From contig BBXU01000223.1 of NCBI GenBank assembly GCA_001598975.1, positions 1 to 64,000 of the forward strand: 64,000 nt of DNA, read 5' to 3'. Below are positions 4,673 to 47,000 of this stretch, in pieces. The notes below the pieces were generated by a model that was not told where the DNA came from, searched no databases, and saw only the letters and a program-made list of their open reading frames with translations. This DNA comes from Parachlorella kessleri (taxonomy: Eukaryota; Chlorophyta; Trebouxiophyceae; Chlorellales; Chlorellaceae). The translations under genes were made by a program, and so were the position numbers. Position 1 is the stretch's first letter, and the number at the start of each line of letters is the position of its first letter.

Positions 4673-5175
4673 TGCAGTGTTGGCTGCCTGTTGAGGAATA
4701 GCAGGAGGCCGGCTCAGTCCCCATGCAGCAGGACTACCACGCCCTATGTTCCAGTGAGCTCTGCCTGGCTAGCGGCAGGTCATGTCTTGACACCGTTACG
4801 CATCCCGTCAGTTGTGTGCGCCATTTGAGCAGCAGAAGGTTACTTGACACGTACATCCTTGCAACTTCCGCGCTCTTTTGAAGGAAGCCATGGGTTTACC
4901 GCAGCATCCCCTTCTTCTGTACAGTTCACTGAAAGATAAATTCAAACGATTACCTACCATGGCACCTTATTAATCCTTAGTATGGGGCGCTAAGTGCTGA
5001 CGTGGAAGGCTGACGCGAACTCTCTGCACATGCCATGCGACTGTTCTACACCCTCCAGCAAGTAACGGCATGCACTATAGGCGTTGAATGCTGGTGCTTA
5101 CGTTGTCTCAGGGTTCAAACTCGCTCAGTTACACTCAGCGACCGATCTCGACCCTCACTGAGTTGCCGGGGCGGC

Positions 5176-8100
5176 ATGGACGAGACTACTGCTCCCCCCG
5201 TGAAGCTTACAATAGAACAAACAGCATCCGAGGTGTTTGACGCGCTGTCTGGATCGACTACAGCAGAGAAACTGCGCACTGCTGTAGCGTCTAGCAGGTG
5301 CGGTGGTGCTCCAACCTGGGGGGTCTGCTGTTGCTGTGGTGCCGTTGAGCTGCATCACACACTGCCTGACCAAAGAAGATTCTCCTGCTGCGTTTGCAGG
5401 GTGGTCGTCTTCGGGAGGAGCACCTGCCCGTAAGCGGCGGAGTCGACTTCCAACCGAGCCGTGCATGCACAATATAAGTCTCTGCCCCGGCAGCTTTTGC
5501 AGCCTGCAAACATATATGCATGCATTGCAGGTTTTGCATCGAGGTATGTCGCACCTTTGTGGAGCTGGCAGTTCCCTTCACCTACTTCATGCTGGACAAG
5601 ATGGAGCAGGGAGCACAGGTGAGCGGGAGGAGCTTCGCACGCATACGCACACTGGGCCCCTGCCACTGCTGGATTAACACGCACCAGCGAACAGATAAGA
5701 CACCGCATTCTCCTGGCGCTCACAACCCCTCCCCCGGACTCAACCTGCTGGGTTGAAGGCTTGCCACATAGCCCTTTGAGCCCTTCTTACATCTGCTGCC
5801 CTTCAAGGGAAGTTCTGGGGAACAGCCATGCTGCTAAGCTGGACTTTTGGACTAGAGTCGCCCTTTTGGTGCCACAGATACATGAGGAACTGAAGAAGCT
5901 GACCGGCCAGCGAACAGTGCCATACGTTTACATCCACGGCCAACTGGTAAGAGTCACGTAGCTTGCCACCTCTTATTGCACAGACGGTCTAGTCCAGTCT
6001 AGACTAACAGCGTACCGCCACTGTCCATTGTTTTCACCTCTTGACTCACAGAGGTGGCAGGTTTGCACCATGAAAGACTCCGCAAGGCAGAAAGCCGTGC
6101 ACACGCGCCGTCTGATAGCTGGCTCTTTAAAAGAGCTGCTCCTGCAAGTGACTAGTGCTGTGTGTCAGTACTGTGCTGATGTTGAAAAGAGTGTTTCAGC
6201 AAGTGAGTGCAGGTGGGTGGCTGTGACGCCACAAAGGATCTGATTGCCTCTGGGGAGTTTGACAAGAAGCTCGGCAGCTGGGGTGAGCATCCCCCCATGT
6301 GGATTCGGCCCTTGGTGCTTGACTGACTTTTTTGCCTCAGGCTGCCGACTGCCACGCCACATGCACAGTCAGTCTGCGCCCCAGCAGAGCACTGATGCTT
6401 GGCCGGGATGCCAGCACACCTGGCAGACAGCTGCTGGCTGCAGTGGGCCAGCTGCCCTGAAAGATGCCTGCGCCTGAAGCAGGTGCTCAGCTTCCTCTGT
6501 CTTGTGTGCTCCACACTGCAGAGAACGGCAGCAGCAGGGCCACCAGCGGTGGGGACCCGACCCTCATTAAGCTAGCGGGGGTGGACGAGGATGCACCACG
6601 TGTCATAGGGGCCCTGCTTGAGTTCCCCAACACTGTGGACAACCGCATCATACGGCTGGTGGCTGTCCAGGTCGGTCCCATTGATGCTGCTTCAAAAACA
6701 AAGGGATATTGTTTTCCTAATTGTCGTCTAGGCATGCATAGGGGATCTGCTGTTTGCAGTGGGCAGGGTGTCACACCATCCAACCCATGCCGTGGGTTTG
6801 TGCCTGATTGTGATCCACCTGAGCTTACCTGTGTTCCACCTGAGCTACACGACACACACCATCCACGATTTGCCATGCTGAACTTGGCAGTGGACCCCTG
6901 TCATCCTCCACGCAATTCATCCCCTGCTGCCAGGCCAACACCACTCACATGCAGATTCCACACAGAGGAGCTCACAGGTTTAGCGCAGCGATCGTAGGTC
7001 ACCTGCTGGGAGCTGCCTGCCCACTGCCGCAGGTCTTCTTCATCTCACTCTTCCTGGCGATCTTCGCATACAAGAAGCACCAGTCGTGGCACTGGGTGGC
7101 CGTTGGTCTACTGGTGGACTTTTGCCTACGCTTCTATGTAAGTGTGTGTGCATACTGCCCGGAGCCACATGCAAAAATCACAACAGCCAGTAGGCCGCAG
7201 GGTTGCTTACCTCCTGTCCACCACTGGATGGAGGTGGGCATAGGTGGGGTGGAGTGAGCCATCAGCTGCATCAGGTTGTGTATATATCATCAACGGTGTG
7301 CTCTCCAGTAGTAGCCTCCCTGCCCGGACAAGGACATATCAAGCACGTGCCAGGGTGTGCCGCATCACTAGTAGACTAGGCTGGGCAGTTCCGTTGCAGA
7401 CTGTCCCCGCCCTGCTGCAGGGTGGCGCCAGCACCTCACCCCTGGGCTCCCTGGCTCAACTGGTGGCAGCCGTTGCCGACCTCCTGCTTCCCCTGTGTGG
7501 CATCAAGTCAGGCCCGATCTGGGGTGCAGGTGGGTGCTGCACGAGCTTCCCAGCCTTGCACGACTCCATATAAATACACCCATAGCCATAGCCATGGTCC
7601 ATGCACTGGGCTCTCCATGCTGTGTACCCGGCAGGCCAGCCTCGACTCACTGGTGAGGTACCTGGCATGCGGCCCGCAGGTCCCCCCAAGCAGTTTGCCG
7701 TCAGCGTGGGCATCCTGTTCTCCACCATCATCGTGGTCCTCCAGTTCACCCACCAGTGGCAGGCAGCCACGGCCTTTGCCGCCACGCTGTGCTTCTTTGC
7801 TGGGCTGGAGGCCTTCCTCAACTTCTGTGCCGGCTGCTGGGTCTTCGGCTACGCAATCAAGTAAGCTGGCTTGGACAGGGCGGCATCCCCCACCCAACTC
7901 TGGCCTGCCTTGCCACCTGGAGTACCGATGCTACTCCTGCTGTGCTTCTGCTGTGCTGCGCTGTGCTGCGCCGTGTCGTGCCGTGCCGCGCTGTGCTGTG
8001 CTGTGCCGTGCTAGCACAGCGCTGTGCCGATTGCTGGTGCGGGTTGTGGAGATGCAGGAGAGGGACCTGCCTGCCTGGACCCCATGCATCCCCATCTACT

Positions 8101-11100
8101 GCTACTGTCCCACACACCAACACACGTGGCTCTCCAGTGCGCTCAGACTCTGCTGCATTGGCCTGGCAGGTTTGGCATCATCCCTGACACTGTGTATATG
8201 GTTCACATAAACACGCTCCCCGAGACCAAGTACACCTGGCACGACTGGGTCACACGGGTGCACCCCCCTGCCCCCGTGAGGGTGGTCCAGCACTTCCCCA
8301 CCTCCCTGCGCCCAGGCAGCAAGCCCACCAAAGTAGACCTTCACTACAAGGCGAGTGACTTGGCTCGGCTTGCTGGGTCGCTGACGCCCAACACAGTTAC
8401 TGATATCACCACTGCCTGGAGGTCAGAGTTAACCTCCAGACTGGCCTAGGCGCTGCATGCACCCTGCAAGGTACAGCTCCCCTGCAAGGGGGTGAGCCCA
8501 GCTTCTTGTTTTGCCGAATTGCTCACATTCTCAAGGTATGGTAGTCAGCTGCTTACCAGGCACTTGAAGCACGTGCTGGCCAGTGGCTGTTCGAAGTGCT
8601 GCCGTGCAGACAGGGAAAACTGACGACTGGGAGCAGGAGGACTTTGATATCATCAAGCACGTCAAGATTGGCTTCTTCTCTCCAGCCATGGGCGTGGCTG
8701 CAATCCCGGCCATGTTCAAGTGAGACTGGGTGGTTGCCTGGCCTTGCGCTCGTCAGGATGATTTATGGCTTACCCAGGGCAGACCGGATCACGCACCCTT
8801 GGCTTCTGCAGTGATGGCAGCTGGCAAGCCTGCTGGACCGCGTTCTTCACCACTGTACAATGGAAATGAAGTTCAGGCGACTGCCTAGACCCCAGCACCC
8901 TCGTGTATAGTGCATGGCGAACCACACAGCGTGGGTACACTGATTTTGCAACTGTTACTGATTGTTGCAGGTTCATGGCAATGACTCCCTCGTTCGGCAC
9001 CCCAACCTTGGTGTGGCAGATCCTGACAGTGTTGTCCCTGTGCTTCACATCCATCTTCCTGTTCCCCTACCTGCTGAAAATTGTGCTCTACCCACATAAG
9101 GTGCGGTGCATGAGGGGGCTAGCATTGTCCTCCTTGGATGAGTATGCGTACCAGAGCCAGACCCCTGCTCGGCACTTGAAGCTCGTTGCTCCATGGGTCA
9201 GCTCTTATGCTGCAAATCGTGTGTTGGTTGGCGAGAGCTGTTCAAAGAGGTCAAAATTAGTATAAAAGAAATAGTGGACCGAGCCAGCAGCAGAGGGGCT
9301 TCTGGCTGCAACAACAAGGTCGAGTTCTTGCTAGCTGCAGGTCTACAGGGAGTGGATGCACCCGGTGCAGAGTAACGCCTTCAGCGTCCCATTCATGACC
9401 CTGGTGGTGCGTGAGTCAATCCGTTAGTTAGTTTAATAGTCGGCTGGTTGTGAGGTTGCTCAGCTGGCTGGGTGGGTGGCTGCAGCTAGCCTTCACCCCA
9501 TGGGCTCCCTACAGGGGACTGCATAGCAGCGTAAGCTGCGTTACATGTATCACAAGCCGCATGAATGTCTCACAAGGTACCCACCGCTTTGCTGTGCTTG
9601 GTGCCACCGCGAATCTCAGCTATGTGACACTCAGCCAGCTGCCTGGGCTCCTGCGTGCCTGCAAGTTGACCTCTGACAAGTTCTAATGAGAACTTGGCAT
9701 TGCTGACCCCTCAGGTATATGCGTTCCTTGCGGAGCACTACAGCCGGCCCTTTGCGCGGGTGCTGTTCTGGGCTGGAGCCGGGCCCACCATGCTCGTATC
9801 GATCATGCTTGTGGGCAACTGGCTAGCCACAATCCGACATGAGGGCCACGTCAACGGCGCTTTCCAGGTGGGCTGTTCACTTGGTGCCACTTGGCTGGTG
9901 CATGCCTATCGAGACCTAGTTGGGTGTCTGTTTCGGGGAGACGTGCAAGCCTGCAAAAAACACATTTGTCCTGCATGGGACATGGCAGAAGTATTGAACC
10001 GGAACCCTAATGTTGGTCCCTGGGCTCAACTTGCTCGGCTGCCTGTGCAGATGGCGCCGATCGGCAACTTCATTGTCGCTGTGGTCGGCCCGATCGTGGA
10101 CTACCGCTACCGTGACGTGTGCTTCATGTGGTTTGGCTTTGCCGCCATCATGTACATCACCCTGTTCATCTTCACCTTCCAGCGGAACGTGAGTCTCTCT
10201 GTGTTTACCGACCCACTCTCTCGTGGCTGCCATGGCGATACCCAACTGGTTGGGGGTACATGAGGCCGTCTTGCCAGTGGTGCTGTGGGGGCGCGTTCCC
10301 GCCAAGAAGGAAGTTCGTTGGCAGGCTGCAATCCCTTGTTGCGCAAGCCGGGGGACGGTACGCCAGCTACCGCGTCTAGTCCTTATAGGCAAGTAGTGCA
10401 TGTTTCACAACACCAGCCAGAGTTCCCTGCAAACAGCTTTGGTAGGCTGGCAGCACCAATGTGCCAGGGCAGTGCCAGTTAGTGCCAGAGCAGCAGGGCA
10501 AGTTGCTGTCTACCGGCGGGCCCTGTGACAACTTGGCTATGCCTGGCAGGTCCTTTTGTTAAGGTCTACCAGCAGGTCGTGTTGGGTGATACTGCAGGTT
10601 GTAGGATACATTGCTGATCCCAGGCAGAGGATGTTTGCTGCCATCTGGTTTGCCGCACCAGCTGTGATGAGCATCGCCTGGACCGTGCTGACAGCCCCTG
10701 GTGGCGTGTGGCTGGTAAGGTGGTTGCATGGGTCCCCTATCACGCCTTGCTGTGCGTCCTTTTTTCCGAGTGGTGATCACCTCATGAGTGTGTCCCAAGC
10801 TTGCTAATATGCAGTTATGCCTTTAACAGACCTGCCTGCAACATGCTCACCAACTGCGCTGCCAGCTGTGGTTGATTGTGTTGCGCTGTAGGCATTTCGT
10901 GTTGCTGCCTGACTGTGGTCCCAGACACCAAAACGGGTCAGATGCTGTGCAGATGGACGGCTTTGCACAAACCATGTTCTATGTGGCCTTCACACTGGGC
11001 CTTGTGGTTGCCTGGATGGCCTGGAAGCGCTTCCTGTGGACTGACATGGTAAGCAGGGCAAGCTTGTATGTGCCCCTTAACGCTTAGCCATGTCACCATG

Positions 11101-14100
11101 TGTTGCAGTTCCCCAGCACAAAAGCGCAAAGGAAAGGCAGGTTGGGTCTGGGGGGTGCGCGAGAAGCAGCAGGCACACCAGAGCTCGTAATGTATCATTT
11201 GGATTGCTGCTTTGACCCAGTCTGCCTGGAGAACATGCAGTTCTTCATGCCCATGTGGGCGTTTGGTTTCCCCACCGCCGGTCTGGCTTGGAGCGCCATA
11301 CTGTACGACGCCACCATCAACACAGCGCTCAGGTGGGGTTTTTGAGCACCACTCTCACACCTGCCTTGCGAGAATCAACGTGCAGCCACCAGGCGCAGCG
11401 TTCCAATGCCTGTTTTGTGCGACGGCATTCTCAGCCCTTCCGTGGGCTGCAGGCATTATGTGAGTGATAGACACGCCTGGCGCGATGCGCTCTACATGCA
11501 TTTCACGGACTCAAATATAATGCCCACCAACCCTCATCTGCTTGCTTCCCTTGCCTGCTGCTGCAGCAAGGTACTGGCCATCTGCCTCATATCCCTAGCC
11601 TGCATCGTGGCGGCGGTGCTGACGTTCAGAACCCTAGCAGGCATAGCACGCCTCAAGGTAGGCTAGCTGTCCTACCAAGCTGCTGCTGGCCTCCATGGCA
11701 GCAGAGAGACAGGCTGCTGGAAGTGCTTGGCACAAGAGCCTGCCCCTGTGTGCTCATCCCTCAGCAGATGTAGCGTGTGGAAAGGGAAGCCTCTATACTG
11801 CTTGCCACCCCTTCACATCCATGAATACACATCCCTGGGACAAGTGGCAGCCAGCGATGCCATTTGCACGGTCCGTGGGCTGCTTGGAAGAGCGTCGATA
11901 TCGAGTGTGTTGCCCACTCACCACAGGCTGCTCCATATCAATGCTTCCTGCCTGACTACAGGTCTTCATCCCGGAGCACAGGTGGGGCCCCATGGCTCAC
12001 CTGCCACTCGCCCAGGACTCCATGCGCAGCATGCTGCACAACCTCACCTCGGCGGTAAGTGGGCTCCATGCTGCTTACGCTGCGGTACATGCCAGCTTTG
12101 GGTTTGGAGATGGACCTGTCAGGAAGCTGTCAGTGCCATGCAGGCCGGCGGCATGCATGCACCCCTCAGGGGTTTTGTCTTATATGGGGCTTGGGGCCTG
12201 AGGTGTACCTGCATCGCTGTGTAGCACCTCCTTCCACCTGGTCCTTCCGGCGGCATGAACAGCTTGCAGGCCCCAGGTTGCCTCCCGGCCGCTCCCAACC
12301 TCGTTGCCCTGGGCAGCTGTAGGTTCGGTGGTCAGCTACATCGTTTCACACACATGCGTGCTTGACGTTTTGGCTCACACCATGGGTGAGGGGAGGAGCC
12401 ACTCCCACATGGATGACCTTGCGTTGCAGACTGAAGCCTACGCTGCCAATCCATCCAACAGCCGCCTGGCAGAGAGAGTGATCATCCTCTGGCGCTCTTT
12501 TACCACTGTAAACACCTTCTACATTAAACTCAAGGTGGGTGATGGGGACGGCACAGTGCTTGCAGTGCAGGGGTGCCTTCATGGCAGCTCACTATATTAT
12601 CCGGGCCATCCGTTGGCCAGGCACTTAGCAAGCAATGCCTGCTGACTGACATGCAGCCACCTTGACGGGGGCCATTCCAAGCCCAATCACCCCGCACTTC
12701 ACTGCACGCTCTGAGTGCTCTGATGGCATGAACAAGCAGCAATCCAGATGGTCCCGCACCCTGGCGAGGCCTGGGCGTATTGATTTAGTCATTCCATTTG
12801 GTCCCACACCCTCGCTGGCTGCAGAATGAGATGTGCTTCCCCACCATCGGGTCCTGGTTCCCAGGCCACCAGCGGCCCTTCGTGGCACAGAACATGCAGA
12901 TGCTGGATATGCAGGCCAAAGTGGACACGCTCATGGCAGGTAAGGAGTTAAGCCTGGCAGCTGCCAGCAGCAATTGGGTGTGGAAAGACTCTCAACAGAT
13001 GCAGGAGGAACGCTTCCAGCATGTTGCGCACGGCTTGGGGACGCAGGCGACCCTGTCTTGCAGGCTAGGCTGCTGACAAGGGCTCCCCTTTCCTTCCGCC
13101 ATACAGGCCTAGGCGCGCAGAGCAAGGTGGCAGCCAGTGGTGTGCCGGTGGCTGCCATTATCCCTGACAGCATGGATGGCTATCCTGGCTCAACACCTGC
13201 GGAGAAGATCGCCAGCGCAGCTGCCAAGAATCAGTGAGTCAAGGCAGTCCGTGCAACCCTGCTCCACAGCCAGCACTGTCTGATGTAGTAACTGGCCGGC
13301 AATGGAGGCAAGCCAGATGCCCGCCCCGCAGCATGTTGGTGCCAAGGCCAACGGTATAATGACTATCAATGTGGTCCACATGTGGTGAACTCACCGCAGC
13401 AGCATCAGGTGGCGACACGCTGGGACTGGGCTGCCGCCATCTCTGTCCCTGCCGACAGCTGCAGGCCAATGCTGATTTCCAGTCTCTCCTGCGGGCTCTC
13501 AGCCAGGCTTGCTAAGAACTCTACTGCTGCGCCTTGCCAAGCAGGCTGGTGGTTGTTGGGCGGTCAACTTGCCCGTTCTGCATCGAGATCACCAGGACCT
13601 TTTCCCAGATGGGGCTGCCATACGTGTATTTTCAAGGTGACTGCCCACCTTGTGGTTGCCGTGTATACAAATTTGCCCATGCCCTTGCTTGCATGAGCCG
13701 TGGCAGCCAGACTGGCAGAGAGTGGTAGAGAGCTGGTGAGCATTAATAGCCCTGCAAGCAGACTCACTGCCCCAGAGCGCTCCTTTCCCCTCCTCATCAT
13801 TTAAAGACTAGTGCATGTGGCCAAAACTGGATGCAGTGGATCACCTCCCCAACGGGGCCGAGCTGCATCAGTCCCTCAAAGAAGCTACCGGCCAGCGCAC
13901 TGTGCCATACGTCTATGTTGACGGGCAGATGGTGGGTGGTGCTGCCGCCATGGGAGGCAGGCTGCGCTGCAGGTCATGCATTAATTTAGTCTGGCTGCCT
14001 GCAACCATGGCTTGCGGGTCTGCCCTCGATGTTCCTACATCTCCTTGCCAGTGCGACGGCTGTGTCTCCAGGATCCCAGCCAATGCTTGGGGGTCACAGC

Positions 14101-15444
14101 ATGGTCAACCATTTGTTCACCTTGCCCTCCTTCTCAGGTTGGCGGCTGCGATGCCACCAAGGCTCTCATCGCATCTGGCGAGTTGGACAAGCGTCTGGGA
14201 GGGACCGCGAATGGGGGCCACCACAGCGAGGGAGCGGATGTTGCCGCGCTGCAGGTGGGTTGACTTGACAGCTGCTGGGCTGCGGCGCACCCAGCTGTAG
14301 GGTTGTCAAGCCAGCACAGATGAGTGCTGGCGCAGGTGCACAGGTGCTTGCAGCATTTGGGCACTCCGACTTGGGGAACCCTGCATGCATTAGCTTTAGA
14401 TGCAAGCCTGTCAGCAAGCCTGGCATAGCTGCTGCTAGCCGAAGCGAGTATGAAGCTGGGAATCTAGTAAGCTCGTCAAGCTCACGCTGTCTGTGTCCCC
14501 CTTGTGCTGTTCTGGCCCCATCCTCGTCCCATCATCTAGAGTAATATCCCCCACCTTGCGGATGCTTTGCCAATTCCATATCCTTTGACTGCCAAGCGCT
14601 TACAGGCACTGGTGCATGCCCCAGCAGACCTGCTGCTGTGAGAGGCCTTGGAAGGGCACACCTAACACCCAACCCACGTCTGATCCCCTGCAGGCGCACA
14701 TGCACGCCTTCTCAGACTTCGCTGTCAAGGCATTCACTGACGTGGAGGATCATGTGAGGCCCGTCACCCGGCGCTACATCTCGGGGCCCGTCCAGAAGAA
14801 GCTCATGAACGACTGCTGGGACCTAGCGCAGCCGGAGGAGTGGTTCCAGGCAAGCCATTGCACCCTGTGGCCAGCCAGCCAGCACTTTTTGACCAATCAC
14901 GTCTTCACGGCATCGTGAACAGCCCCCCCTGTCCCCCTTCCTTCCGCCTCCCAGCCCTCCTATGCCTGTTGTATCACTTTGTTCTGTTGATGGCCAGTTC
15001 CAGACGGGGCTCTCACCTGCCATCCGCAGCTCTGCTTAGAGCGCGGTAGACTGTTGGCCATTCAAGGCTCCCTGGCCCCACTCTTCCCCACACCCGCTAC
15101 CTGTGATTGCCACGGAGAGCTGGGCTGCCTTCAACCCACAGTCAATCCTGCCTGCAATCTTCATGGTGCCTGCCACCGAGGGTCCATGCTAGCAATGCCA
15201 ACTGCTGGCTGACTCACCCTGACCAATGCTGCCCTTGCAGGCCATCCCACTGGTGCTGCAGCACCTGCCCATGTTTGGCCAGCGCCTGACCTACATCCGC
15301 GCTTTCCTGTGGGCCATGCCGGAGCGCTGCCAGCAGATAGGCCTCATGGTGGCGCTGGGATCCGATCCCGTGAGCTGGTATCGGCTGCGCAAGGCGCTGC
15401 CAGAAATCATACCCCGCGGGGAGGCAGGGTGGAAGCACTTCTGA
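5176..15444 (+). CDS. Fusion protein: glutaredoxin - DUF4395 - TehA/SLAC1-type channel - hemerythrin-like region enclosing a second glutaredoxin
   Basis: 28 exons give 1,069 residues: 5176-5297, 5400-5429, 5531-5618, 5878-5946, 6213-6282, 6522-6670, 7033-7137, 7421-7529, 7680-7860, 8170-8350, 8610-8719, 8971-9100, 9341-9406, 9715-9867, 10051-10188, 10598-10714, 10953-11048, 11232-11332, 11567-11657, 11962-12054, 12430-12534, 12825-12939, 13107-13233, 13545-13636, 13837-13931, 14138-14254, 14694-14849, 15241-15444. All phases agree. Grx1 has CPFC (50-53), RTVP (to 95) and GGCD (105-108). DUF4395 follows (about 145-308) with GPPKQFA and a CAGC pair (297/300). The TDT channel (about 385-705) shows HPVQS, NFIVAVVG and a PxxRxxxxxxxAPA helix. 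Grx2 has CPFC (858-861), RTVP (to 903) and GGCD (913-916). Residues 703-840 plus 951-1069 resemble the two halves of an HHE helical bundle. Inferred role: a membrane anion or organic-acid channel with attached thiol-redox domains. Weak points are the start (an in-frame ATG also at 5035), the exon at 11232 and the donors at 6671 and 9407. Confidence 0.8.
5400..6282 (+). other. Glutaredoxin domain 1 of the fusion gene (exons 2-5)
   Basis: The domain begins VVVFGRSTCPFCIEV, a dithiol CPFC active site whose Pro codon is split by an intron (5430-5530). The cis-proline TVP motif and the GGCDAT glutathione-binding motif are intact, so the fold and catalysis are probably preserved. Confidence 0.9.
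5989..6023 (-). repeat. Dispersed repeat copy 2, inverted, in intron 4 of the fusion gene
   Basis: Read on the minus strand it is CAGTGGCGGTACGCTGTTAG followed by TCTAGACTGGACTAG, matching the unit at 61291-61342. Confidence 0.6.
6522..7860 (+). other. DUF4395 membrane domain of the fusion gene (exons 6-9)
   Basis: The order of motifs matches the DUF4395 family: VDNRIIRL, a helix, LLVDFCLRF, SPLGSLAQLV, GPPKQFA, two helices and LEAFLNFCAGCW. DUF4395 is known mainly as a small bacterial integral membrane protein of unknown function, often encoded near thiol-redox or rhodanese genes. The conserved CxxC-type pair near its end is kept. Confidence 0.7.
7931..8030 (+). repeat. CTGTG/CTGCG minisatellite in intron 9 of the fusion gene
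   Basis: About 100 bp made of tandem variants of GCTGTGCTGCGCTGTGCCGTG-like pentamers lies inside the 7861-8169 intron. It does not code in the gene frame. Confidence 0.7.
8610..11657 (+). other. TehA/SLAC1 (voltage-dependent anion channel, PF03595-type) domain of the fusion gene
   Basis: Exons 11-19 encode about ten hydrophobic segments. Recognisable family positions are the SPAMG helix start, YREWMHPVQSNAFSVPF, APIGNFIVAVVG, ADPRQRMFAAIWFAAPAVMS and the MQFFMPMWAFGFPTAG segment. In TehA and SLAC1 the corresponding helices line an anion pore. The pore Phe of TehA/SLAC1 could not be placed with certainty by eye. Confidence 0.75.
13545..14254 (+). other. Glutaredoxin domain 2 of the fusion gene (exons 24-26)
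   Basis: LVVVGRSTCPFCIEI, RTVPYVYV and VGGCDATKALIASGE are all present. Introns fall at the same codons and phases as in domain 1 before the first beta strand and before VGGCDAT, so the two domains are internal duplicates. Confidence 0.9.
14694..15444 (+). other. C-terminal hemerythrin-like segment of the fusion gene (exons 27-28)
   Basis: The 119-residue tail has the pattern His-rich helix, FTDVEDHVRPV, Q-rich helix, W..P.EWF, R....AFLWAMPER, then PEIIPRG and a final GWKHF. This recalls the second half of plant/algal HHE hemerythrin-like domains. The assignment is by pattern only; several metal-ligand positions are uncertain. Confidence 0.4.
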
Positions 15445-16339
15445 GGGTGCTGACGCTCCTGAAGAGAGAAGAAATGTTGCTGGGAGTTGTGAGGACACGG
15501 CTGTCATGTCACCTGGTCCAGGCTTTGACAGGTGGTCCATCTTTCGGGGACAGGCTTGCTGCACCCTGCCGAAGGCCTGCATTGCTGGGTCCAAGTCCTG
15601 ACTGTACCCCAATGTAGACGACATAAAGGTTATGAGAGCCTGGTCGTGTCTGTAAGTGCAAAGAGGTGGTACTTATTCGCTCATGCGGCATTTTGTAGTG
15701 AGTTTGTCGCATCAGTAATGGTTGGCTGACTGCTGCTGGACATTATGAAGCCACAGCTTCACCGCATGTATAAGCATGGTCCCCGCATGCGCATGTGGTT
15801 ACATGCTGGCTGGTCTTTGTCTGCCATTGGCCACTTTATCAACAATGGTCCCCACCTTTGGTGCTGCACTTAAACAGTCAGGTTTCTAAGCTTGCTTCAC
15901 ATTTGCTGCGGCCATTGTTGCAGTTGCAAAGCTGCACAATCTTTATCTCATGGGCATGTTAGCAGTCTGCACTGACATCAGATCCACTATCCATAAGAAA
16001 CCATGCAGCATATCTAGGGTTCTACAAGCCTACAATGGTGTGCCACTGACCACCCACATGCACAGCCAAGCCTTCTTCTGCCTGAAGTGACTAGGAAATA
16101 TGAGTACGCTTCATTCTGAACACTAAACAACTTGCAACTCTGTACTACAGGCACTGGCACCCACACACTACAACAATGAGCGCCCCAGAGCTTCATATTG
16201 CAGAAGTCATGGGCACGCATGGAGAGAGGAAAAGAAAAGCAGTGTGCAAACAAGAGAGCACCTCGACTACTGGCTCAGCAGTTCAGAAGAACCCCGTGAG
16301 GTATTAAATATGTTGCCGCCAACAGAAGGGGATGACCGC
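15445..16339. other. 3' UTRs of two convergent genes
   Basis: The stretch separates the + strand fusion gene from the - strand secreted-protein gene. No exon, RNA gene or clear repeat was seen. Confidence 0.45.
15651..15655 (+). terminator. TGTAA poly(A) signal, fusion gene
   Basis: TGTAA lies about 207 nt downstream of the stop at 15444, an ordinary 3' UTR length for green algae. Confidence 0.45.
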
Positions 16340-22437: not shown

Positions 22438-25400
22438 CTATCCTACTGCCTCCAGTCTCACGCCCTTGGCTGCCATCTGATCAACTATGCTGTTGACCTT
22501 GTGGCAGATGCCCTGGATGTTCTTGTCCCACTGAGCCAAGGGCTGGTCAGCTGCAGTGAACCGAATCAAGCCCTCCACTTGGTCTATCGTTGCCTGCAGC
22601 ACATGCGCAGCGAGGAGCTAAGCATAAGATCCAGCATTCACACATGAAGCCCCCAACAGCTGTCGTGAAGCAAATCATCCCCCTCCGCTTGGCTTATGGC
22701 CTGATGAATGTCAGGCACTGAGCCAGGGCAATACCTGCTAAATAAGGCTCCTTAGCGCCCTGGGCCTCCTTGCAATGCATTTGAATTCCTGCGTAATTAG
22801 CCCAGGTATTGCAGCAGTCACCCAGCCAGCCATGCCCGGGCTGCCCAGCAAGGACCTGCCAAGCCCTTAGGTGAGAACATGGGGGCGGCGCTCGCGACTC
22901 CAGTCTTCCCCACTGGTTGCACTCAACGACGGTCCTGCTGTTGGGAGGTGCAGGGGAGCTCTCCGGCTGGACGCACCTGCAGTCGGCTCTCCAGGGCCAT
23001 CCGGGAGGCTATCTGCTCTGCCTTCTCCGGCTCGACATCCAACAGCGCCCCTAGCTCTGCATGCAGTGCAGCCATGAAAGCAGTGGGGAGTGCTCAGGTA
23101 GGGCCGGCCAACCAATGCCTGGGAGGGTTATACTCCGAGCTGCTCTGTGTCGTGCGCCAAGGCTCTGTACTAAAGCGCCGTCTCCGTGATCTGCAAGCGG
23201 GACCATCCTCCAGGGAGATAAAACCCAGGCAGCCAGCCACAACTGGCGTGCACCTCCCAGCAGGCTGCAGAGCGCATATTAGTGTGCATGTGCCCTATGC
23301 TGCTTGTCCACCAACACCCAGTATTCCAGGGCCTTGAGACGACTCGCAGGCGGGTGCACAAAGCCCCAGCGACCTCTCCAAGGCTGCCAAGCCCAGCACA
23401 CTGTCGTCCTCCGCACTTTCTGATATGGGCACGCAGCACCTCAGGCACACCTGCCACATATATGTTGTTGTACAGCTTGGACGCGGCCTCCAGGTTGTGC
23501 TCCATGACCGACCTCTCCAGCACCGTCGACCCATCAGGCAACGTTGCCAGCTGGTGACGCAGCAACCCCGCAGCAAAGGCATCCACCTGCGCTCAGAGGA
23601 GTTTATGACAGTGGCTTGAATGGTGTGCTCGGCAGCTATGGGGGTACACCAGCTGAGGAGGTGATGCACGGGAAGTGTTTGACGTTAGCATATGCACATG
23701 CATGGCACTGACTGACCTGCAACCAGATCCAACGCACCGGGAACCAAGGAGCTACGCTATTAACACCCAGTAATTTGACACCAAACAAGATCTCACCTCC
23801 GCCTTCTGCAGTATGCGCTCCAGGTACACCTTCTCCAGGAAAGGGTAGACAGACAGCTTGGCACAGCGCTCGTCCTTGTACAGCGTTGCCAGCAGGCGCG
23901 AGCGCTGGGGGCCGGCTGCTGCGAGGATGGCGCACGTGATGGCCGCGGCCAGCGAGTGCTGCAGGTCGTCGTCGTCTATCTGCAGTGCGCAAGGAGATGG
24001 GCAAGCACTTCACAGCAGGGTGGCAGGGCGATGGCCGCGGCCAGCGAGTGCTGCAGGTCGTGGTCACCCAAATGCAGTCACCAATAAGACCGGCAACCAT
24101 TTCACAGCAGGGTGGCAGGGGAACAGTGGGTGGCCAGCAGGAGCCCCACAGGAGGGTCCCCTTCAAGGGCGCAAGCAATGCCTGCACCCGGGAACTGCTC
24201 CAGGTCATTAACCACATGCTACAGGAGTCACACTGCAGCGCCCTAGGCCATGTATTGCACTCAGCAAGCAGGCGAGCCAGATGTGCCAAGGCGCCCCCCT
24301 GTCGCTGGGAGCAAACCATTCTGCATTTCCCCCCTCCTTTGTCCAGCCCTGCCTCAGCCTGTCAGCCCAGCAGGGCTGCAGTCGTGGGTGATCTCAGCAG
24401 CCACTTGGTAATTCCCCGCCGCCTACCAACCCTTGTGCCTCCCCTCTCAGCTTACCAGCCTTCCTCCAATGATTCGCTTGCCGATCTGGCTGAGCTCGTA
24501 GTAGCGTGTAGCCGCCTCGAGGAAGCGGCGCTTAGAGTCCAAGATGCGGGCGTAGCAGGACTTGTACTGCAGCTCAAGCTCCTCGTTCTAGAGCAAGCAG
24601 GGGAACGGCGGTGACCGTGAGCGCAGTGCAAAGAGTTCCCCGACCAGGCGTCTGAAGGTACAAGGCGCAATCCCTCCCGCAGCACCTACCAGCCAGCAAA
24701 ATGCACCCCACGACTGGCAACCTGTGTGTGCCTTCTGATACCAAGCACATGGGTGGGTGGGCAGCACAGTATCGCAAGCCCTGCAATCACTCCCTTGCAA
24801 CGCTTCTTCACCTCAACCACACCCTTGGACTCATACAGCAGATGAGGTGACGGCCAGCCGCTGACATAGCCCATGCGTCACTACCCCCCCCACCCCCCCC
24901 CCGCCCCCCCAGCTCAGTTGATCCCCATCATCACGTCAGCAGGCCCGCTGCCTGACCTTGCACTGTGAGAGCAGGGCCGAGGCCTTCTTGATATAAGTCT
25001 CAGCATTAACAGGGTCGTCGTCCTCCAGGAAGAGCATGGCTATCTTGATGTACTTGGCCAACTTGTACTCCGTGTCTACTACCCTCATGCCTGCACACAA
25101 CCGAGCGTGAGCGCCAAACACATGTGCATGCCCAGTGTCGATGTAAGCCGGCACCCTGTGCTTACCACCCTCCTGCCGGCAAGCAGCCCATTTGTGAACA
25201 TGACAACGTCAAAAATGATGCGCCAAGAACTCAAGTTTGGGTACATTGTGGGCCTTTACGTGGCAATTCGAGGCTCCTCTAAAATTCCCTCCACATCTCC
25301 CATGCACATGGATACACACTGCAGCACAGCAACAAACTGCATCAGTGAGCTATGGGTCTACAATAACTTAAACAGCTCACGCGCCCACCCCCTGCACCCC

Positions 25401-44043: not shown

Positions 44044-47000
44044 GGGTTGTAGTTGAGGGACGTGTCTGCTGGTGTGTCAGCCACGACATCAACCTCACAT
44101 AATGTCAGCTGCGTCTGAGACGCTGGCCGGTAGATGACCACATACCGTGCTAGCTGCCCCCGCCCCTGGTTGCAATAGACCGGCTGCCGTGTGTTCGGCC
44201 CAAACGCTGACTCCACGCTGCCACAGAGGCTGAAGCTGCCCACAGAGCCGCCATCCACCCAGGACTGGTTGCCCAGTAGTACTTGGGCCGAGCCCAGGGC
44301 CTCCCAGGATACGTCAGCGCGGGTAGTAATCATGACTGACCGCACAACCAGCTCCTTGCCCAGGTCCAAGTACCAGTAGGGGTCACGGTCATTTGGATCT
44401 GCAGGGCAGCAGCAACAGACCCTGTTGTCCGGCCGGGTGGCGATTATTGTTGGGCTGAGGTACGGGTGACCGGGTTTGAACTGCCCAACCCAAGCCCCAC
44501 AGGGGGCTGACGCCTTGAGGCTCGGCTTGCATTGCTATAGCTCTGCACCTGGCAAGCACGCATGCCCAGACACTCTTTGTCTATGAAGTCCATGTTGCCC
44601 TGTATCGCCAGGGCGCAGACACAAGGAGAGTGTGAGGGCTCAATGCGCGACTCTCCAGGGTGCTGCTGCCCGCCCTTGTCGCTGTGAGCTCACCTGTCTG
44701 TGCGCAGAAGGGAGCCGCTGCAGGGTTGGTGTTGCAGCTGCCATCCACCGCCAGCGAGGCCGGTCGGCCAGTGGCAGTACTGGACTGGAACGCAGGCCTC
44801 CCCTTGGCTACAGATGTGCCGCACTGGATGGTCTTGGGGTTAAGGGTGATGGACACATCAGGACTAGGAGGCGGCGGGGAGGCCACTGGACTGGGGGGCG
44901 GTGGTGAGGCCAGAGGGCTGGGTAGCAAGGGGCTGGGAGGTGGCGGCGGGCTTGGGCTGCAGAGGAGGGCGAGCGCGGATGCAAGGTCAGCCAAGCAGCC
45001 TTGACCATGCAATATCTTGAAACTTGGTTGATATGACAAAAGAAGAAAGCACCTCAAGGCACTGCATGAGAAAATCAAGTAATTATTATTCATGAAGACC
45101 ACCCTAAGGCTGGCGCTGGTGGGTAGCCAAACTTAGGAGCCCTCCGCATGCTCTGGCAGCTGCCGCCAGTGGGACGCATTGCCCATCTCTCACAGCCTCC
45201 CAGGCTGCCAGCCATGACAGTTGCTACACACTTGTGCCGCGGTTGTCCGTTTCCACATACCAAGCACCAGTAGATGGTAGGAGAAGTTTGCTCACCTGGG
45301 AGGGGGCGGGGAAGCCACAGGCGTCGGCGGGGAGGGAGGCGGTGGGCTAGGAGGAGGCGGTGACAGTACAGGTGGCAGTGGGGAAGGGAATGGTGGGCTG
45401 GGTGGCGGAGGTGATGCCACCGGAGGGGGCGGTGAGGGAGGGGGTGGGCTGGGCGGAGGCGGGGACGCCACGGGCGGAGGAGGAGATGGGGGTGGAGGGC
45501 TGGGTGGAGGAGGCGAGGGGCTCGGCGGCGGTGGGCTGCAGGCGCACAAAATAGTATGGGTGAGCAATTGCAAAACCTTACTGTTTGTATTTGAGTTGCC
45601 CGCTGTGCCCACCATGCATGTCTACAGCAGGATACACGCTCTGGCAGTGCTCCGTTAGACAGCCAGGACATGCAGCGCAAAACGGCCCTCACAGCACTCC
45701 TTCAGTCTACTCAGCCCCTTCAAAGTCCACTGAGTCCCTGGAGTCCCTGCCCATCCCCCAGCAAAACCTGACTGACCAGAACTCCCCAGAGCCCAACCCA
45801 GCCAGTTTAGTACAGGTTGACAGGGTACCTACACTGACCATGCTGCCCCAAGCCAGCCAGTCTAATACAGTCCGACAGCGTACCGCTACCTGACCATGCT
45901 GCCCCAAGCCAGCCAGTGTGGTCTAGCCCAACCGCGTACCGCCCGCCTGACCTTGTTGCACCAAACCAGCCAAGCGGAGCAACCAACCCAGTTAGTACAA
46001 GCCAGCTCTCACTCCCTGTTCGCACTACCTGCCACGCGTTCTAACAACTCCGGACCCCAGCCAGCCCCAGGCCCCAGAGACGACGTACCTTGGTGACAGT
46101 GCCAAGGGGAAGTCAGCCCTGACTGCCTGCAGGGCCTTGTAGATGTTCAGCCGCCCCCCAGTGATGACCTTGTTGGCACCGTCAGCCGTGGCGTCCACCC
46201 CCTTCAGTACATACTCCTTGACCTCGGTGTGAGTCAGCGTCCTCCCGGCTGCCATGGCCACTGACTGGACCAATGCTGCTGCCGCTGTCACAATGGGGGT
46301 GGCCATTGAGGTCCCCCACATCTGGCCATAGGCCCCGTCGTAGGTGGTTGACAGGATGGCTTCACCGGGGGCGGAGATGTGAATGGTATTCCTGCGCCAG
46401 CAGGCCTATATCATGAGCAGCTGCCAAAGGCCCCTACCCGCACTCAAGGTGACTTGTTGTCCCGCACACCGCCCAGCATTGCGTGAGGTGCTGCCCCATG
46501 TCGTGTAGCATGCAGCAGCCAACACGTAGTTCGCATGGCTGAAGTCCGTCCAGACGCCACGGCTGCCCCAAGAAGCTTGTGCTGAGCAGGAGGTGCGCCG
46601 CCCCTCTCCCTCCCAACAGAACCGCACCACCCATCACTCACTTTCCGTAGTTGGAGAACCCAGAGATGACGTCATTTACGTCGGTAGACGCCACTGACAG
46701 CACGTTGGGGATATCCACAAACGAGGCTGGGTACAGGGGCGTCGCATCCATGTCCTGGCCGTTGTTCCCCGCCGCCACCACAAACAGCTGGCCCGCCTGG
46801 TTGGCTGCTTGCAGCTCCGTGGCCAAGAAGTCTGACTTGGCAATGCCGCCCCAGGAGTTGGAGGAAATGAGGGCGCCCTCCCCCTGGCACAGCTTGAGGC
46901 AGTTCATGGCGTCTGAGATGTACCCCGAGCCGTCGTTCCAAATGAAACGGCAGACTACCAATCTCACCTGCAGGCAGGCAGGCAGGCAGGCGGGCCACCA

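Follow-up and report, generated by a model that had tools for sequence, protein, structure and literature searches.

A green-algal gene joining glutaredoxin, DUF4395 and SLAC1-type channel domains, and the possible regulation of its product by thiols

One gene, one chain

Are two glutaredoxins (Grx), a DUF4395 domain and an SLAC1-type channel encoded as one protein by the green alga Parachlorella kessleri, and what could such a chain do? These questions are raised by a gene on the forward strand of contig BBXU01000223.1 (assembly GCA_001598975.1, 50.9 Mb in 1,642 contigs), of which positions 1 to 64,000, called the window here, were analyzed. An earlier note, made from the letters of this DNA alone, had proposed a single gene that also contains a hemerythrin-like region. 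Our observations confirm the fused gene at the level of sequence and lead us to suggest, tentatively and at somewhat less than an even chance, that its product is an S-type anion channel regulated by thiols or glutathione.

The exons were re-derived by hand from the raw sequence, with reading phases consistent throughout. The 28 exons counted in the earlier note were recovered, whereas the coding length is 1,066 residues plus stop and not the 1,069 codons it had given. The gene spans 10.3 kb with 27 introns, 25 of them of the GT-AG type and two, after exons 10 and 27, of the GC-AG type (GC at window positions 8351-8352 and 14850-14851). From the N-terminus, the order is Grx1, DUF4395, SLAC1, helices 1-3 of a bundle, Grx2, and bundle helix 4 with a tail (Table 1). 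Pfam matches lie above the cut-offs for PF00462 (two copies, 98.2 bits together), PF14340 (71.3 bits, cut-off 24.5) and PF03595 (82.7 bits, cut-off 27.9), and the glutaredoxin motifs that had been read from the letters, CPFC, TVP and GGCD, are present in both copies (CPxC, TVP and GGC being those of the family; motifs at residues 50/93 and 855/898). The DUF4395 assignment is accompanied by the FCxGC motif and the channel assignment by the SLAC1/TehA fold; the SLAC1-type nature of the channel agrees with the earlier note.

A full-length protein search yielded three independently predicted proteins with the same domains, P0001, P0003 and, from Micractinium conductrix, P0002; each covers 98-100% of the query at 61-62% identity. 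Since these three database proteins match end to end at this identity, the fused gene is confirmed, as far as sequence comparison goes, to be real and not a chance join. The size of the gene and its 27 introns might still suggest that two or three adjacent genes were read as one; however, we consider such an artefact as good as out of the question. All 28 exons align with P0001-P0003, exon 1 weakly (7-12 identities), and 25 of the 27 splice junctions have no indel within three residues in any of the three; nearby indels occur at junctions 5/6 (P0002, P0003) and 16/17 (P0001, P0002). Furthermore, the contig encoding P0003 (1,096 residues) has 3,568 bases and is hardly longer than the open reading frame (ORF), and we read it as spliced RNA; a further end-to-end homolog, P0036, appears among the MMETSP transcripts as an ORF marked complete.

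At least 39 relatives were found, 27 in a first protein search and 12 new ones in a second; this is a lower bound, as both searches scored the approximately 8,000 candidates sharing most words. According to precomputed Pfam annotation all 39 contain DUF4395 and SLAC1 and 27 an annotated Grx, which excludes the outcome named in the earlier note as speaking against its reading, an absence of the architecture in all related algae. In the alignment (40 rows including the model), 38 rows contain at least the back half of a Grx, with GGC in 38 of 38 rows having letters there, and the two without it, P0025 and P0044, both start later. Grx, DUF4395 and SLAC1 follow each other in this order even at 33-35% identity. 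Named sources include Micractinium, Nannochloris, Raphidocelis, Chlamydomonas schloesseri, C. incerta, Chlamydomonas sp. UWO 241, Gonium, Edaphochlamys and Tetrabaena, and one diatom, Stauroneis constricta (P0046, taxid 265584). Contamination might account for the diatom row, but a recent one is less likely because the sequence is divergent (34% identity to P0027). In the genome of P. kessleri itself one DUF4395 match was found, and all 20 matches listed for P0002 fall on the contig of the window. A protein of another diatom, Seminavis robusta (P0064), deposited as mitochondrial glutaredoxin-2, contains Grx and DUF4395 only; it may be a shorter relative, or its gene model may be truncated.

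A degenerate hemerythrin-like bundle and a copied glutaredoxin

The region following the channel had been described as hemerythrin-like and as a possible metal- or oxygen-binding bundle. PF01814 (hemerythrin) matches 11 of the 39 relatives (P0027 and P0036-P0045), and gave no match in the P. kessleri protein at E up to 1. Six columns, in P0036 numbering H769, H772, E773, H796, H837 and E841, are presumably the metal ligands, judging from what is known of the hemerythrin family. They are kept in 12 of 12 rows (P0027, P0036-P0046), which were chosen for having the hemerythrin motif. The lineage of the P. kessleri protein (26 rows, the model and P0001-P0025) was compared with them; P0026, in which the ligands are partly lost, and the truncated P0047 belong to neither set. 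Within this lineage the H769 column holds Y in all 26 rows, H772 holds L (16), I (9) or M (1), E773 holds K (26), H796 holds N (22), H (2) or D (2), H837 holds T (14), N (4), A (2), V (2), Y (2), S (1) or H (1), and E841 holds V (19), L (4), F (2) or M (1). The P. kessleri protein itself has none of the six ligand-type residues, and because all six are substituted the usual di-iron site should not form here. This region thus appears to be a degenerate hemerythrin, for which the sequences do not support the binding of metal or oxygen that the earlier note had considered.

It is therefore very improbable that the hemerythrin part senses oxygen, nitric oxide (NO) or iron and gates the channel. 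Such a role would agree with the Pfam matches and the kept columns of the motif-chosen relatives; in the lineage, however, the ligand is missing from every row at four of the six columns (0/26), and the other two columns retain it in two rows (H796) and one row (H837). In Chlorophyceae and the diatom, the intact motif might provide an added input of iron and oxygen or of NO, while in the Chlorella-type lineage the metal site would have been lost and the scaffold alone would remain, with Grx2 in some species.

Grx2 is present in four of the 40 rows (the model and P0001-P0003). In the predicted structure of P0002 it occupies residues 862-955 and is nested in the putative four-helix bundle, with helices at 743-764, 769-802 and 808-836 before it and at 976-1008 after it. 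Grx1 and Grx2 of the same protein are 47-69% identical, and in a Grx tree the four Grx2 sequences form one clade (support 97/96) inside the Grx clade of the lineage (96/93). Grx2 originated as a copy of Grx1 and was inserted within the bundle. In the P. kessleri gene, a phase-2 intron interrupts the codon preceding (V/L)VV(F/V)GRST in each copy, and a phase-0 intron directly precedes VGGCD, as would be expected if genomic DNA and not mRNA had been copied; speaking against it are two further introns of Grx1 (one in the CPFC motif, the other past residue 80), which are missing from Grx2, and one intron found only in Grx2. The rows with two Grx are paraphyletic, with weak support, in a tree of DUF4395-SLAC1 (90/43), and it is possible that the single-Grx rows lost Grx2. 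The Raphidocelis protein P0026 (Rsub_08088) shares the Grx-DUF4395-SLAC1 architecture but differs from the P. kessleri protein in having two tandem N-terminal Grx (CPYS and CPYT sites), no Grx2 and no conserved tail, and its C-terminal bundle is without most ligand-type residues. The two Grx of P0026 are sisters (99/96) and reflect an independent duplication within the protein family.

Possible roles: thiol control, sulfur transport or tethering

Among solved proteins, those nearest to the channel domain are plant S-type channels, and the profile score is 130 bits for SLAH3 compared to 63 bits at best for TehA. The phenylalanine aligned with AtSLAC1 F450, which we take to be the gate residue, is present in every row that has a letter at this column (39 of 39), one row having none. 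In a tree the channel domain groups with plant SLAC/SLAH with a support of 97/95, falling to 79/64 after five rows were dropped, when three alternatives were not rejected by the approximately unbiased (AU) test (p 0.163, 0.166 and 0.054). With three Arabidopsis channels added, the support was 99/96 and 91/88, and of four alternatives two were not rejected (0.165, 0.171) and two were (0.022, 0.017). These trees sampled neither Mae1 nor Ssu1. Grouping of the domain with the SLAC/SLAH channels of land plants is thus indicated with moderate support only. A second TDT/SLAC1-family gene of P. kessleri lies on another contig (C366, about 7168-10732, minus strand) and is very divergent from the fused gene.

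Within DUF4395, both cysteines of the CxxC (FCxxC) are found in 40 of 40 aligned rows. The same two are invariant in 11 chosen bacterial-type rows, and in a mixed set of 48 DUF4395 sequences the first never varies, while conservation of the second is 90% or more. For bacterial neighborhoods, genome contigs were scanned and the best 80 of at least 579 confirmed DUF4395 loci were used; nearly all are titled Actinobacteria, so that this sample represents the nearest matches from essentially one phylum and not bacteria at large. In 79 of the 80 loci (the exception is L068), DUF4395 has a thioredoxin-like gene between -2.0 and +1.5 kb, the best hit being on the same strand in 57 and on the other in 22, with none elsewhere in the flanks examined. 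Rhodanese is encoded in 46 and DUF1416 in 43 of the loci, always on the same strand; Pfam confirmed one example each of these three kinds of gene. In one of the bacterial thioredoxins, Arg residues come after a hydrophobic helix at the N-terminus, which would fit a thioredoxin domain facing the cytosol, and the CxxC may lie on the same side. The predicted structure of a bacterial DUF4395 is confident (predicted local distance difference test, pLDDT, 93.4), and no clear solved relative of it was present among the Foldseek candidates.

A channel under thiol control is the reading that we prefer. SLAC1-family proteins cross the membrane ten times. The chain lacks hydrophobic segments ahead of residue 167, for which reason Grx1 would be cytosolic, and with four membrane crossings in DUF4395 and ten in the channel, both Grx and the CxxC would face the cytosol. 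Grx1 could then glutathionylate or deglutathionylate the CxxC behind the last membrane helix of DUF4395, or reduce a disulfide there, and DUF4395 would relay the change to the adjoining channel with its phenylalanine gate kept. The most likely cargo would be an inorganic anion such as chloride, nitrate or a sulfur oxyanion. The proposal of the earlier note that thiol state gates the channel is strengthened by the invariant CxxC and by the linkage of bacterial DUF4395 to thioredoxin, and is not proved by them. Several points weigh against such gating. None of the 80 bacterial loci has a TDT-like channel gene in its flanks, and within the loci examined the link of DUF4395 to a channel is eukaryotic only. 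The second Grx1 cysteine is Ser or Thr in five of 30 rows with a letter, so that a dithiol mechanism cannot be general. A hydropathy scan finds four segments in DUF4395 and seven in the channel, the even total of crossings assumed above being taken from the family. The structure predicted for the whole P0002 chain is of middling quality (pLDDT 71; predicted template modeling score, pTM, 0.54), for which reason its domain contacts were left unread, and the conduction of anions is assumed from the SLAC1/TDT family.

The main alternative, in our view improbable but to be taken seriously, draws on the same linkage to thioredoxin and rhodanese and makes the protein a transporter of sulfur compounds. 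Its channel would move sulfite, thiosulfate or a related oxyanion, and at the inner face Grx and CxxC would process sulfur (persulfides or adducts of glutathione) in the service of transport chemistry rather than gating. The frequencies of thioredoxin-like, rhodanese and DUF1416 genes around bacterial DUF4395 favor this, as does a bacterial SLAC1-family gene on a Thioclava plasmid (L111, 1-1631), which lies between genes of the DsbA and TauE/SafE sulfite-exporter families. The sulfite exporter Ssu1 of yeast is likewise a TDT protein. On the other hand, rhodanese was not found in 34 of the 80 loci, some of which have short flanks, and the channel domain is nearest to plant S-type channels among solved proteins, with Ssu1 unsampled.

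It is also rather unlikely that the fusion only tethers Grx at the membrane for the benefit of other proteins, with a channel activity that is not redox-controlled. The variable second cysteine of Grx1 would be compatible with this, and no contact between Grx and channel has been demonstrated. Yet the domain order is kept at deep divergence, Grx was duplicated twice within the family (in the lineage of the window and in Raphidocelis), and the CxxC never varies.

Beyond the single protein, thiol control could extend to a glutathione-gated S-type class across core chlorophytes, the first anion channels recognized to contain a glutaredoxin of their own, in which DUF4395 is a membrane thiol switch (CxxC) coupling thioredoxin or glutaredoxin to a partner and the channels are a green-algal sister of SLAC/SLAH; we regard this broader proposal as unlikely to hold in full. 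For the handling of metalloids, which the earlier note had also considered, no evidence was found either for or against.

Related systems and features of the locus

The channel domain is like those of plant SLAC1/SLAH (PDB 9m7r, 9m7s, 7wnq). Plant S-type channels are controlled via phosphorylated termini, whereas here Grx, DUF4395 and the hemerythrin-like bundle occupy the places of these termini. Bacterial TehA and SLAC1-family TDT proteins share the Pfam family and fold, but are stand-alone channels in the examples fetched and have a lower profile score. Bacterial DUF4395 resembles the algal domain in PF14340, the FCxGC motif and a thiol-enzyme partner; it differs in being encoded by a separate gene, in having thioredoxin and not glutaredoxin as the partner, and in having no channel gene in the flanks examined. 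Plant hemerythrin-GST (GSTH) is, in the parts of the description consulted, a thioredoxin-fold enzyme fused to hemerythrin and followed by about 100 unannotated residues (PMC4138524). The P. kessleri protein likewise combines a thioredoxin-fold enzyme, a hemerythrin-like domain and a tail, while those parts describe neither a channel nor DUF4395 for GSTH (PMC4138524).

Searches of the open-licence literature for DUF4395 with glutaredoxin and for SLAC1 with 'glutaredoxin domain' yielded no description of the combined architecture, as the earlier note had supposed, and nothing was found there that joins Chlamydomonas and SLAC1 with hemerythrin or TehA; DUF4395 is scarcely mentioned in it at all. 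Such sequences are already public under names uninformative on their domains, P0002, with the same Grx-DUF4395-SLAC1 architecture, being deposited as 'C4-dicarboxylate ABC transporter'. The families are known and their combination is apparently new. In the parts consulted of a study on such channels, SLAC relatives of chlorophytes were still to be identified, and algal TDTs were found using yeast Mae1 as query (Dreyer et al., 2012; PMC3509319). The fused protein thus bears on the origin of plant S-type channels, and if the broader proposal above were true, these channels would have been redox-controlled before land plants imposed kinase control. The fusion makes glutathione gating of an anion channel a direct question of mutagenesis (CPFC, CxxC) and gives DUF4395 a testable role as thiol-switch partner of thioredoxin or glutaredoxin, and the Chlamydomonas members allow work in a model genus.

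Table 1. Features of the fused gene in the window.
Feature	Position	Strand	Basis
Entire coding gene, 28 exons	5176..15444	+	Splice reconstruction and per-exon conservation
Grx1, exons 2-5 (CPFC, TVP, GGCD)	5400..6282	+	Pfam match, residues 42-104
DUF4395, exons 6-9, residues 165-305	6522..7860	+	Splice reconstruction and Pfam
Invariant CxxC (C297, C300) after last long hydrophobic helix of DUF4395	7826..7837	+	Alignment
Exon 10, linker between DUF4395 and channel, followed by GC-AG intron	8170..8350	+	Splice reconstruction
SLAC1/TDT channel domain, exons 11-19	8610..11657	+	Pfam, residues 385-692
F648, column of AtSLAC1 F450	11268..11270	+	Alignment
Exons 20-22, channel end and first helices of degenerate hemerythrin-like bundle, ligand-type residues substituted	11962..12939	+	Alignment and P0002 model
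Exon 23, linker preceding Grx2	13107..13233	+	Full-length matches in two-Grx forms only
Grx2, exons 24-26, copy of Grx1 nested within hemerythrin-like bundle	13545..14254	+	Pfam, Grx tree, P0002 model
Final bundle helix and conserved C-terminal tail (WAMPER...IIPRG), exons 27-28 with a GC-AG intron separating them	14694..15444	+	
TGTAA, candidate poly(A) signal	15651..15655	+	207 bases past stop

The linker between DUF4395 and the channel is modeled with low confidence in a relative (P0002, residues 321-384). At the 5′ end, the reading frame continues without a stop ahead of the ATG at 5176 and includes a second ATG near 5035; the former was kept as the start because P0001-P0003 begin close to it. 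The in-frame extension at 5035-5175 is Ser/Arg-rich, is absent from the predicted starts of these three proteins, and is possibly a targeting peptide. At the 3′ end, TGTAA, which we take to be the poly(A) signal of chlorophytes, occurs at only two other places on the plus strand within 5000-16200, starting at 7137, on the edge of exon 7, and at 12507, within exon 21. Elsewhere in the window, tandem repeats are present at 23938-24120, 45296-45513 and 45792-45972, with units of 92, 51/102 and 56 bases, respectively.

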